From Mucilaginibacter achroorhodeus (GTDB lineage: Bacteria; Bacteroidota; Bacteroidia; Sphingobacteriales; Sphingobacteriaceae), in NCBI RefSeq assembly GCF_007846095.1, contig NZ_VOEI01000008.1:62001-126000 (forward strand): a DNA stretch of 64,000 nucleotides. Reading direction: 5' to 3'. Position 1 is the stretch's first letter. Each line of letters begins with the position of its first letter. Under the pieces are notes generated by a model. It was not told where the DNA came from. It ran no database searches and was given only the letters and a program-made list of their open reading frames with translations. Positions 28,400-58,027 of the stretch are shown piece after piece. The translations under genes and the position numbers were made by a program.

Positions 28400-31291
28400 T
28401 TACTCGAATCGCTCTTTCAAAAATTTACCGGTGTAGTTATCTTTTTTCTTGATTAGATCTTCGGGTACGCCTTCAAAAACCACCTTACCGCCGCGTTCGC
28501 CGCCTTCGGGGCCAATGTCGATAACCCAGTCGGCACATTTGATCACGTCCATGTTATGTTCAATCACCAGGATGGTGTTGCCATTTTCAATCAAGGCATC
28601 AAATGATTTCAGGAGCTTTTTGATATCTGCAAAATGCAAACCAGTAGTAGGTTCATCAAAAATGAACATGGTTTTGTGGGTGTTGTTACCTTTTACCAGG
28701 AAGCTTGCGAGCTTAATGCGCTGCGCCTCGCCGCCGGATAGCGTGTTGGACGATTGACCCAACTGAACGTAGCCCAAACCTACATCAACCAGTGGCTTTA
28801 TCTTAGCGAGTATTTTTGTTTCCTTAGCGAAGAACTCCACGGCCTCATCTATGGTCATATCCAACACTTCAGATACATTCTTATCATTATAAGTAATGTC
28901 CAGAATGTGCTGCTTAAAACGCTTGCCACCGCAGGCTTCGCAGGTAAGAAAGATATCGGCCATAAACTGCATCTCTATCTTCACCTCACCCTCGCCCTGG
29001 CAAACATCACAACGGCCGCCTTCAACGTTAAAAGAGAATGCCGAAGGCTTTAAACCGCCTGCCTTTGCCGCCGGCAGTGCGGCAAATAAATTTCGGATCT
29101 CGTCCCATGCTTTAACATAGGTAACAGGGTTTGAGCGTGACGAACGACCGATAGGGTTTTGATCTACTAATTCAACCTGTTCAATTTTATTGTAATCACC
29201 TTCAATGCTGTCAAACGAACCGCTTTGGTCGCCGGTGTAATTACCTAATGTTTTTTGCAGTGCAGGCGCCAGAATACGTTTAACCAAACTGGTTTTACCC
29301 GAACCGGATACGCCGGTAACTACCGTAAGCACACCTAACGGAAACTTAGCCGAGGCATGTTTTAAGTTATTCTCGCGCGCACCTTTTATCTCGATATAGT
29401 CGTGCCATTTACGACGGCTTTTAGGGATGGCGATCTCCTCGCGACCACTGAGATATTTACCGGTAAGGCTGTCGTCATCAACAATGATCTGGTCGTACGT
29501 ACCGGTGAATATGAGGTTACCTCCATGGGTCCCTGCTTCCGGGCCAATATCGATAATATGGTCGGCGGCTTTCATTATCTCTTCCTCGTGTTCTACCACC
29601 AACACCGTGTTACCTACATCGCGCAGCGAACGTAAAACGGAGATCAACCTTTCGGTATCGCGCGGGTGTAAGCCAATGCTTGGCTCATCCAATACGTAAA
29701 CCGAACCAACCAAGCTACTACCTAACGAGGTTGCCAGGTTGATACGCTGTGATTCTCCGCCCGACAACGTGTTAGATAAGCGGTTCAACGTCAGATAGCT
29801 CAAACCCACATCGTTAAGGAAACGCAGGCGACTGGTTATCTCCATCAACAGGCGTTTACCAATTTTTTCTTCCGTTTCGTTAAGTTTCAGCGTACTAAAA
29901 AATTCAGAAGCGGTATCAAGTGGCATCAGCACCACATCGGTTATTGATCTGCCATCTATCTTCACATAAGAAGCATCCTTGCGCAGTCGGCTACCTTTAC
30001 ACTCGGGGCAGGTAGTTTTTCCGCGGTAGCGTGATAATAGAACACGGTACTGGATCTTGTAGGTCTGCTCCTCCATCTCTTTGAAAAAAGCATCAAGCCC
30101 GCGAAAGTACTGGTTACCTGTCCACAGTAAACGCTGCTCCTTTTCTGTTAGCTGGTTATACTGGCGGTGTATCGGGAAGTCGAACTTAAGGGCATTTTTA
30201 ACCAGCACATCGTTCCACTCGCGCATCTTCTCGCCGCGCCAAGGGGCAATTGCGCCTTCGTATACGGTCTTGCTTTTATCGGGTATAACCAGGTCCTCAT
30301 CAATCCCTATCACCTTGCCGTAGCCCTCGCAGCGTTTACAAGCACCATACGGGTTGTTAAAGCTGAAGAAGTTTGGCGTAGGCTCTTCAAAACGCATCCC
30401 GTCAAGTTCAAAGCGGTCGCAGAAGAAACGTTCGGTTTCAGAAGCTCCCTCTAAATCTCCCCCGTCGTTCGAGGCTTGATTATATCTCACGTAGCAATCG
30501 CCTTTACCTTCAAAAAAGGCCGTTTGTACAGAATCTGCCAAACGGCTGATCGTTTCGTCTTCCATGTTTTTGGTAACACGATCGATCACAATGCGCACGT
30601 GCTCATTATAACCGTCAGACTGTTCATGGTCTGCACTGGCTTTTTTCTTTTTCTTTTCCTTAACCTCCGTATCGGCAGCAATGCTTTCGTCCTCGAGCAG
30701 GCTTTCAATACGAGCTAACTTACCGTCTAACTCCACCCGCACAAAGCCTTTTTGCATCAACACAGCCAGTTCCTCTTTAAGGCTTCGGTTATTGTGAGGA
30801 TGCAGCGGACATAGGATAGTTACTTGTGTTTCATCAGGCAAGGCCGAAATAAAATTCACTACATCGGTAACCGTATCGCGTTTTACCACCCCGCCTGATA
30901 CGGGCGAAATAGTTTTACCTATACGAGAGAACAGTAATTTTAAATAATCGTATATCTCGGTTGATGTACCTACCGTAGAGCGCGGGTTGCTGGTGATCAC
31001 TTTTTGCTCAATGGCAATTGCGGGCGCTATACCTTTTATGTAGTCAACGTCGGGCTTGTTCATACGGCCCAAAAACTGGCGTGCGTATGATGATAAGCTC
31101 TCCACGTAACGGCGCTGGCCTTCGGCGTAGAGCGTATCAAATGCCAATGACGATTTGCCGGAACCCGACATACCGGTTACCACCACCAGTTTATTTTTGG
31201 GTATGGCTACATCAAGGTTCTTAAGATTATGAACCCTTGCACCTTTTATGATTATATGTTTCTGCGGATCTTTATCTGCTTCTTTGATCAT
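28400..31291 (-). CDS. uvrA: Excinuclease ABC subunit A
   Basis: 963 residues. UvrA scans DNA for lesions in nucleotide excision repair, working with UvrB and UvrC. Both ABC modules are complete: Walker [15 protein letters not shown] and [15 protein letters not shown], signature [14 protein letters not shown] and [14 protein letters not shown]. Zinc-site cysteines are visible in [26 protein letters not shown] and [10 protein letters not shown] lysine-rich insertion (KEKKKKKAS, near residue 215) is unusual but lies in a variable region. A long inverted repeat sits immediately upstream of the start. Confidence 0.98.
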
Positions 31292-55734: not shown

Positions 55735-55838
55735 TGCGCGACCCTCTCTGCTCCGCAAAGAGGCGGAGAAAAAATATCCCTCTTTTCGCGCAGCGAAGAG
55801 AGGGTGGTCCAGCGTAGCAAAGACCGGGTGAGTCCTTT
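55735..55838. repeat. Tandem long repeat, copy A
   Basis: The first 29 bases (55735-55763) are identical to 55877-55905, 142 bases downstream. The centre carries inverted halves, CCCTCTC near the left and GAGAGGG near the right, so each copy is self-complementary. Confidence 0.85.
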
Positions 55839-55876
55839 GCGTTGTTCCACTCACCTCGTCCCGATTGCTACCGGGA

Positions 55877-55985
55877 TGCGCGACCCTCTCTGCTCCGCAA
55901 AGAGGGTAAGAAAAAAACGACCCTCTTTTCACACAACGAAGAGAGGGTCGACGATCCGCCGAATGGCAGAGACGTCGGGGTGAGT
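55877..55985. repeat. Tandem long repeat, copy B
   Basis: This copy starts with the same 29 bases as copy A and has the CCCTCTC/GAGAGGG inverted halves; beyond about 55905 the two copies diverge in places (for example GGTAAG against CGGAG). Confidence 0.85.
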
Positions 55986-56071: not shown

Positions 56072-58027
56072 ATGATCACCAAATCAACTATCGACCGTAT
56101 AATGGAAGCCACAGATATTGTGGAGGTGATAGGAGAATTTGTGCAGTTGAAGAAACGCGGTGCCAACTTTATTGGCCTCTCCCCTTTTGTGAACGAGAAA
56201 ACGCCATCGTTCACGGTGTCGCCGGCAAAGGGCATTTTCAAAGATTTTTCATCGGGTAAGGGCGGCAGCGCGGTTACCTTTTTGATGGAGCTGGAGAAAT
56301 TCACCTATCCCGAAGCGCTTAAATGGCTGGCTAAGAAGTACAGCATAGAGATAGAGGAAACGGTTGAAAGCAAAGAGAACCGCGAGGAAGATAACCGCCG
56401 CGAGAGCCTGATGATCGTATCGGCATATGCGGCTAAGTTTTTCCACGAGAGCTTGCTGGAAACCGATGAGGGCCAAAGCATAGGGCTAAGCTATTTTAAG
56501 GAACGCGGCTTTAGCACCGAGACCATTAAAAAGTTTGAGCTGGGTTACTCACCCGACCAGTGGGAAGCTTTTACCGGGCAGGCACTTAAAGAAGGCTACC
56601 AGGAAGAGTTTTTAGTTGATAGCGGGCTATCTGTTAAACGTGACAACGGCAGTTTGTACGACCGTTACCGCGGCCGCGTAATGTTCCCTATCCATAGCTT
56701 TACAGGCAGGATTATTGCGTTTGGGGGGCGTACACTAAAAAAAGACAAGAACGTACCAAAATACGTTAACTCGCCCGAGTCTGAGATCTACCATAAGTCA
56801 AACGTACTATATGGCCTCTATTTTGCCAAGCGTGCCATTCGCGACGAGGATAACTGCTACCTGGTAGAGGGCTATGCCGACGTGATATCCGTGCACCAGG
56901 CCGGTATCGAGAACGTAGTTGCCTCATCCGGAACTTCACTTACTGTTGAGCAGATTCGCCTTATCGGTCGCCTCACCAAAAATATCACCATTTTATACGA
57001 TGGGGATGCGGCGGGTATTAAGGCATCCCTCCGCGGGCTGGATATGATATTGGAAGAAGGGCTTAATGTAAAAGTAGTGCTCTTCCCTGATGGACACGAC
57101 CCGGATTCGTTTGTGCAGCAGTTTGGCACCAGCGTTTTCAAGAAGCATATTGAGGATAATAAAAAAGATTTCATCCTCTATAAAACCGATATCCTGCTTA
57201 AGGATGCCGGTAATGATCCGATTAAAAAAGCTACCGTTATACGCGAGATAGTTGAGAGCATCTCTAAAATACCTGATTCTATAAAGGCATCGGTGTTTAT
57301 CAAGGAGTGCAGTATGCAGCTACAGATAGATGAGCGCGCACTGCTATCAGAGCTGAACAAGATGCGCCAGGCCAAGGCCAAAAAGGATCACGAGAAAAGC
57401 GAAAAGACCACTACCTATCGCCCTGAACTATCCCCGGAAGATGCTGCCTTATTTGGCGAACAACCCGATGTTGCCGAAGCTGCACCAAAGCCCGAAAAGG
57501 AATCTGACACGCAGGAAAAAGAGATCATCCGCCTGTTGTTGCTGTACGGTAACAAAATGATAGACTGGGATGGCATTGCCAATACTTACATCGGCCCGTT
57601 TATGGTGGCCGAGTTGAGTGATGTTGAATTTGAGCAGCCAGTTTGCAAGGAATTTTTAGAAATTTACCGCCAGGAAGTAGAGAACGGCGTGCTGCCCGAT
57701 GAACAGTTCTTCATTCATTCGCAGGATAAAAACCTGGTCGACCTTACTGTTAACCTGTTAGCCAACAAGTACATGCTAAGCGAAAACTGGCTGGAGATGC
57801 ACAAGATCTTCGTGCCCGATGAACAGGCCAACATGAAGGCAACCATCCTTGGGGCTATCTTTCACCTTAAAAAGCAAAAGGTTGGCAAGATACTGGAGAG
57901 CCTGCGCAAGCAACTGCAAACCACCACAGAAGCCGCCGACCAGGAAATTCTGCTGAACCAGTACATGCACATGAAAAAGGTAGAAAAGCATATATCTGAT
58001 TATCTTGGTTCGGTTATATTGAAATGA
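56072..58027 (+). CDS. dnaG: DNA primase with zinc-less N-terminal domain
   Basis: 651 residues. DnaG makes RNA primers for replication. The Toprim core is clear: VEGYADVISVHQAG (with catalytic Glu), then TILYDGDAAGIKASLRGLDM (DxD-like), and the C-terminal helicase-binding part is present. The N-terminal zinc-ribbon is folded in outline (LKKRGANFIGLSPFVNEKTPSFTVSP, then GIFKDFSSGKGGSAVTF), but the expected CPFH...C..C ligands read S37, V40, D58 and S61, so all four metal ligands are absent. DNA supports this directly at 56180-56260. The stop overlaps nothing; the next gene begins one base later. Confidence 0.97.
   Translation: MITKSTIDRIMEATDIVEVIGEFVQLKKRGANFIGLSPFVNEKTPSFTVSPAKGIFKDFSSGKGGSAVTFLMELEKFTYPEALKWLAKKYSIEIEETVESKENREEDNRRESLMIVSAYAAKFFHESLLETDEGQSIGLSYFKERGFSTETIKKFELGYSPDQWEAFTGQALKEGYQEEFLVDSGLSVKRDNGSLYDRYRGRVMFPIHSFTGRIIAFGGRTLKKDKNVPKYVNSPESEIYHKSNVLYGLYFAKRAIRDEDNCYLVEGYADVISVHQAGIENVVASSGTSLTVEQIRLIGRLTKNITILYDGDAAGIKASLRGLDMILEEGLNVKVVLFPDGHDPDSFVQQFGTSVFKKHIEDNKKDFILYKTDILLKDAGNDPIKKATVIREIVESISKIPDSIKASVFIKECSMQLQIDERALLSELNKMRQAKAKKDHEKSEKTTTYRPELSPEDAALFGEQPDVAEAAPKPEKESDTQEKEIIRLLLLYGNKMIDWDGIANTYIGPFMVAELSDVEFEQPVCKEFLEIYRQEVENGVLPDEQFFIHSQDKNLVDLTVNLLANKYMLSENWLEMHKIFVPDEQANMKATILGAIFHLKKQKVGKILESLRKQLQTTTEAADQEILLNQYMHMKKVEKHISDYLGSVILK

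Follow-up and report, generated by a model that had tools for sequence, protein, structure and literature searches.

A head without zinc ligands in the DNA primase of Mucilaginibacter, probably gained by block exchange and recurrent in Bacteroidota

The window analysed here, a stretch of 64,000 nucleotides from Mucilaginibacter achroorhodeus, carries a complete dnaG gene (56072..58027, + strand) encoding a DNA primase of 651 amino acids. The reading frame is full length from its ATG start and shows no frameshift, as had been stated in a first, sequence-only reading of this DNA. The protein has the architecture of a bacterial DnaG: Pfam finds, in this order, PF01807 (Zn_ribbon_DnaG; residues 3-97, 100 bits for a cut-off of 24.9), DNAG_N, the Toprim families and DnaB_bind, and the NCBIfam model TIGR01391 (dnaG) is matched with 447.8 bits, above its equivalog threshold of 283.6. 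The motifs EGYAD (residue 266) and YDGDAAG (residue 309), which we take to be the catalytic motifs of Toprim in DnaG, are intact (56867..57016, +), and KYVNSPES stands beside them at residue 230. With its domains in order and its Toprim motifs intact, the protein outside the ligand positions is the normal primase that the first reading had described, flanking motifs included. Judging from its sequence, this DnaG is the replicative primase of Mucilaginibacter, with an intact core that is predicted to synthesize primers. Among solved structures, the Aquifex primase (2au3) is the nearest in sequence, and 1d0q is the nearest to the head. Upstream of dnaG, at 55800-55975 of the window, lie repeated stretches rich in GAGGGT / ACCCTC.

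The N-terminal head of this primase (residues 1-100; 56072..56371, +) belongs to the CHC2/zinc-ribbon type, and none of the four ligands, Cys-His-Cys-Cys, that define the CHC2 motif is present in it. The first Cys is replaced by Ser37 (TCC, 56180..56182), the His by Val40 (GTG, 56189..56191), the second Cys by Asp58 (GAT, 56243..56245) and the last Cys by Ser61 (TCG, 56252..56254), all on the + strand; these codons confirm the four positions named in the first reading. Comparison of aligned rows revealed, beside the ligands, a change that had escaped that reading: zinc-type rows have Gly at position 60 (93 of 97), whereas the window has Ser (Ser60, 56249..56251, +), as do 53 of the 54 zinc-less rows, all from Bacteroidota. 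In these 54 rows position 37 is always Ser, position 58 is Asp (37 rows) or Cys (17 rows) and position 61 is Ser (32 rows) or Thr (22 rows), while position 40 is variable, mostly T, A, S, V or K, with a single His; the common signature of zinc-less heads is Ser37, Asp/Cys58, Ser60 and Ser/Thr61.

The loss of the ligands is a property of the genus. The best relatives of the window's DnaG belong to Mucilaginibacter (top identity 94%), and 80 loci carrying this DnaG were collected, most of them titled Mucilaginibacter and a few 'Bacteroidetes' or 'Sphingobacteriaceae bacterium'. Two of the 80 are cut before the head; the 78 that are readable at these positions have all lost the four ligands, with the patterns SADS (31 loci), SADT (24), SVDS (14) and SSDS (9), and all 17 genomes of the genus in the genome sample are zinc-less. 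Because all 78 readable related loci lack the four ligands, and with the reading frame intact, an assembly error or a frameshift is ruled out as the cause; the first reading would have fallen had the positions been misread here and close relatives kept CHCC, and these 78 loci proved zinc-less throughout. On these sequences, the zinc-less DnaG head is fixed in Mucilaginibacter.

The AlphaFold (AF2) model of the head has a pLDDT of 89.5, rising to 95-97 over residues 11-80, and reproduces the fold of the zinc-bound head 1d0q (Z 17.3, rmsd 1.3 over 98 residues; rmsd 0.9 over 92 columns by Foldseek) as well as that of 2au3 (Z 16.2). This prediction, proposed along with the first reading, fits a zinc-ribbon head whose fold is kept without ligands, and it upholds in part the earlier suggestion that the domain folds without metal: a metal-free model keeps the known fold, but AlphaFold does not model metals, so that the model is compatible with a zinc-free head but does not demonstrate one. 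The other option raised in that reading, altered DNA recognition, draws neither support nor contradiction from the data presented here. The window's head thus has the position, the fold and the flanking motifs of the DnaG zinc-binding domain (PF01807; 1d0q, 2au3), from which it differs by the replacement of the four ligands and of Gly60 by Ser. We infer that a polar network formed by Ser37, Asp58, Ser60 and Ser61 substitutes for zinc in holding this fold. A metal could in principle be bound otherwise at the site, by Asp58 together with Ser or with a leftover Cys or His. We give this very little credence. All 54 zinc-less rows do have Asp or Cys at position 58, but Ala, Thr, Ser, Val or Lys mostly occupies position 40, and positions 37 and 61 carry Ser or Thr. 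A zinc site made of one Asp and hydroxyl groups would be unusual. A general flight from zinc was also considered and set aside after a weak check: the ORF at 28400-31291 of the window, presumably UvrA from its start sequence, keeps its CxxC pairs, and a stand-alone primase head encoded elsewhere in the genome (see below) keeps CHCC.

Several observations suggest that the zinc-less head is a working part of the primase. Zinc-less heads are conserved, with 17 invariant columns across 27 sequences. In addition, because 15 of the 20 zinc-less genomes of the class sample have no PF01807 match besides DnaG, and because the stand-alone zinc head is absent from 55 of 120 Mucilaginibacter genomes, the zinc-less head alone most likely suffices for the primase. 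A review describes the zinc ligands of DnaG as highly conserved (PMC6163395), and the precedent for their loss is animal mitochondrial Twinkle, which also has a primase-type zinc head with lost ligands and which has lost primase activity too (PMC7231222); its structure 7t8c is a weak fold match to our head (Z 5.8). That animal Twinkle lacks three of the four cysteines of its zinc-binding domain together with its primase activity (PMC7231222) could be taken to mean that the head of Mucilaginibacter DnaG is likewise a vanishing remnant and that priming is independent of it. This is most improbable, as zinc-less heads are strongly conserved, the head in the window matches PF01807 with 100 bits and is followed by an intact core, and DnaG is the sole PF01807 protein in most zinc-less genomes of the class sample: whereas the primase activity of Twinkle is gone, the window's DnaG is predicted to be an essential primase with both core and head conserved.

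Zinc-less heads extend far beyond Mucilaginibacter. PF01807 searches were run on 198 genomes of the phylum, 109 of the class, 131 of the family and 29 chosen genomes. The DnaG head could be read in 203 Bacteroidota genomes, 66 of them zinc-less and 137 CHCC; this set is non-random, since the family, and the genus within the family, are over-represented and the lowest-scoring genomes in the phylum draw were picked deliberately, and these counts are therefore not frequencies. By family, 46 of 63 are zinc-type, 12 are zinc-less and five are mixed (f1, f8, f31, f49 and f68); no mixed genus occurs among the genera read in these 203 genomes. Within f1, the family to which the window belongs, 17 zinc-type genera were read, and the zinc-less ones are Mucilaginibacter (g1, 17 genomes), g167 (three genomes) and g169 (four genomes). 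Zinc-less heads are not confined to the window's class: families f14, f16 and f27 have them, and so does one genus of f31. The alignment that the first reading had called for, over the family and other Bacteroidota, thus maps the four positions and reveals a widespread zinc-less type. In one genome of family f38 the PF01807 match is split across two frames of 82 and 617 amino acids (G179:C1:4513397-4513677), possibly by a frameshift in dnaG.

The CHCC head is presumably the ancestral state. The number of switches was counted on trees of the core, from which the head was excluded. The underlying alignment left out 17 loci below 150 bits, mostly stand-alone heads, with the partial genes L008 and L038 and the second copy L108 among them. 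A first tree was built from 151 rows kept of 286, after removal of L268, L272 and L331, which have gaps at the ligands, and of the short L036, L059 and L306, and after thinning of the Mucilaginibacter, f1, f2, f4, f16 and outgroup loci; for a second tree, of 74 rows, the long branches L039 and L099 were also dropped and the rest thinned. The zinc label needs 18 changes on the 151-row tree, 12 of them forced by well-supported (starred) branches, and 17 on the 74-row tree, inferred with a mixture model and bootstraps, 11 of them forced (16-17 in 200 bootstrap trees); these counts do not tell gain from loss, and they come from single-gene trees in which some branches are long and the deep forks are weakly supported. 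On the 74-row tree the label is barely more clustered than in shuffles, 46-49 out of 500 being as low. A head tree made without the ligand columns needs nine changes, three of them forced, and because the label changes differ between core and head trees, heads and cores have different histories. A single ancestral loss was rejected as a full account, the core trees needing 17-18 switches and the AU test rejecting it within the family (see below). The first reading had spoken of a neat evolutionary loss; what remains of it is the wide presence of the zinc-less type in Bacteroidota, while a single loss is contradicted by the mixed families (5 of 63) and the 17-18 switches. We infer that the switch to a zinc-less head happened many times in Bacteroidota, in part by exchange of heads between lineages, perhaps by way of phages.

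In the window's family, head and core point to different relatives. The core trees place Mucilaginibacter and g167 inside the zinc-type genera (98/84, 99/88) and pair g169 with the zinc-type genus g172 (99/96), and an AU test on the 549-column core rejects a single zinc-less clade of g1, g167 and g169 (p 0.004); the head tree unites these three genera (98). Mucilaginibacter shares with the zinc-type genera a mean identity of 0.73 (core) and 0.62 (head), and with g169 one of 0.68 (core) and 0.81 (head), and identity in a sliding window flips near residue 100. At 83 diagnostic columns outside the ligands, the ratio of g169-like to zinc-type-like residues is 17:1 up to residue 107 and 12:53 beyond it. 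The inferred recombination breakpoint falls in an interval covering residues 85-117 (56324..56422, +; maximum chi-square 35.8, permutation p 0.0002), none of 5000 permutations being as strong. No flip was seen in controls in which 16 zinc-type genera were taken singly, their head sites being 15-21 of their own kind versus 0-4. The head of Mucilaginibacter DnaG, from residue 1 to about 85-117, was probably replaced as a block by recombination, and not by loss of the ligands in place.

The opposite account, in which the ligands were lost by point mutations in each lineage, few residues fit an empty zinc site and the likeness to g169 is convergence, is one that we hold to be unlikely. It would explain why distantly related families have almost the same signature and why the label changes so often on the core tree, a Cys-to-Ser change takes one base, and the AU test on the head alone is not decisive: with 101 head columns the grouping of the core is not rejected (p 0.12), nor is a single clade of the whole family (p 0.58). 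It has more difficulty with the sharp flip near residue 100, and with the rarity in other zinc-less heads of several of the 17 head sites common to Mucilaginibacter and g169 (frequencies of 0.08 for S66, 0.03 for L74, 0.0 for V34, 0.13 for M11 and 0.10 for W85). Moreover, the Mucilaginibacter head is 0.81 identical to that of g169 and 0.59-0.70 identical to those of ten other zinc-less families. Convergence alone is a poor account because the shared residues are rare elsewhere and because the head is so much nearer to that of g169. Intermediates are also lacking, as Cys37 or Cys61 kept after loss of another ligand was found in 0 of 283 readable DnaG rows; the sole partial loss seen is in a viral contig (L381) whose head reads CPCC, the His ligand alone being replaced. 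Change in place does occur at position 58: one genus of family f49 (g112; L109, L111 and L116) has the zinc-less heads STCS, SVCS and SVDS, and this mixture of Cys58 and Asp58, which favours loss in place and counts against blocks as the only route, suggests that position 58 changes last.

Two further observations temper the case for block exchange. The head of g172 is 0.60 identical to that of its own sister g169 and 0.64 to that of Mucilaginibacter, which counts against a settled direction of the exchange, and the head is nearer to an outsider than the core is in all 54 zinc-less rows, yet 37 of 97 zinc-type rows show the same, a contrast inflated by the choice of partner. In the scenario that we favour, the common ancestor of Mucilaginibacter and its sister genus g167 would have borne a zinc-type head, and this head would have been swapped, in one recombination block, for an already existing zinc-less head akin to the one in g169; the Ser37/Asp58/Ser60/Ser61 network would keep the fold in place of zinc, and the head would still hold the template DNA for the catalytic core. 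We consider it likely, as a whole, that Mucilaginibacter DnaG has a metal-free head gained by block exchange, which is stabilized by a polar network, keeps its usual job and belongs to a type that recurs in Bacteroidota. In a Mucilaginibacter subgroup (L265, L269 and L174) the core is strongly diverged and the zinc-less head nearly unchanged.

Primases of phages have both types of head. Three phages of Flavobacteriaceae have zinc-less heads, Flavobacterium phages laban6-1 (SVDS) and 6H (STDS) and Cellulophaga phage Ingeline_1 (SVCS), and CHCC heads are found in one Porphyromonas phage, one fecal phage contig, and Prevotella and Persicobacter records. Of 541 viral contigs, the best 80 were chosen for their similarity to a zinc-less query; 20 of these carry zinc-less heads, 59 are CHCC and one is CPCC. 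Phages may be carriers of primase heads, and these very few cases suggest, as a lead only, that the type of the phage head follows the host.

In textbook accounts, zinc is an integral part of the DnaG head, with which priming sites of the lagging strand are read. Its role is open to a natural experiment in Bacteroidota, where closely related genera combine either type of head, zinc or zinc-less, with a core that is nearly the same (77% identical), and head swaps between such genera would be a direct test of what zinc does in primer initiation. The finding is also relevant to the design of drugs against DnaG and to annotation, since profiles call a zinc domain where the ligands are absent. C-plus and C-minus ribosomal proteins are zinc and zinc-free paralogues, usually regulated, within one genome. 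There too a structural zinc site is replaced by a zinc-free version, but the members of such pairs are paralogues, whereas the zinc-less DnaG is a single-copy essential enzyme that has been switched. Among the open-access titles and abstracts listed in literature searches, none reported a zinc-less bacterial DnaG.

Another contig of the same genome encodes the stand-alone head mentioned above, an ORF of 114 amino acids that consists of a head only, with CPFH and CFGC intact (G000:C9:381716-381958; L002 1474-1818); its start perhaps lies further in. Such a zinc head is present in 65 of 120 Mucilaginibacter genomes (E <1e-20; G430, G481 and G487 have only copies with in-frame stops) and in at least 11 of the 17 Mucilaginibacter genomes of the family search, in varied neighbourhoods, and none occurs in other zinc-less genera among the matches listed (down to about 4e-10 in the family list), its range spanning this one genus. 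The four ligands are kept in the 11 aligned stand-alone heads and in the 30 best loci. The protein is under purifying selection in the one pair with usable dS (dN 0.061, dS 0.80 for L154/L155), two other pairs being saturated, and AF2 predicts its structure with mediocre confidence (pLDDT 74.8 overall, 81-93 over residues 31-100).

A study by Corn in 2005 reportedly dealt with the separability of primase head and core. The stand-alone head can be likened to the separable-head primases of T7, Aquifex and Arabidopsis Twinkle, in which head and core are pieces, and primase heads and cores can act as separate pieces (PMC10557236); in the parts of the open-access primase literature covered, no description of a natural stand-alone zinc head was found. 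By analogy, the stand-alone head might assist the zinc-less primase; a role as its required helper is not supported, given its absence from 55 of the 120 Mucilaginibacter genomes. A bolder reading, which we regard as doubtful, treats the head as an exchangeable cassette: metal-free heads would pass between chromosomes and phages and take the place of zinc heads as whole blocks, the phage type suiting the host, and in Mucilaginibacter the function of the zinc head would have moved to the stand-alone protein (65 of 120 genomes), acting in trans on the zinc-less primase, for example where zinc is plentiful or at particular priming sites. The same genome also encodes a CHC2/Toprim-like protein of 308 amino acids that has lost its ligands (SPLR...WFDF; G000:C7:221905-222099, L003 859-1785), next to a short ORF which we take to resemble a mobilisation protein.
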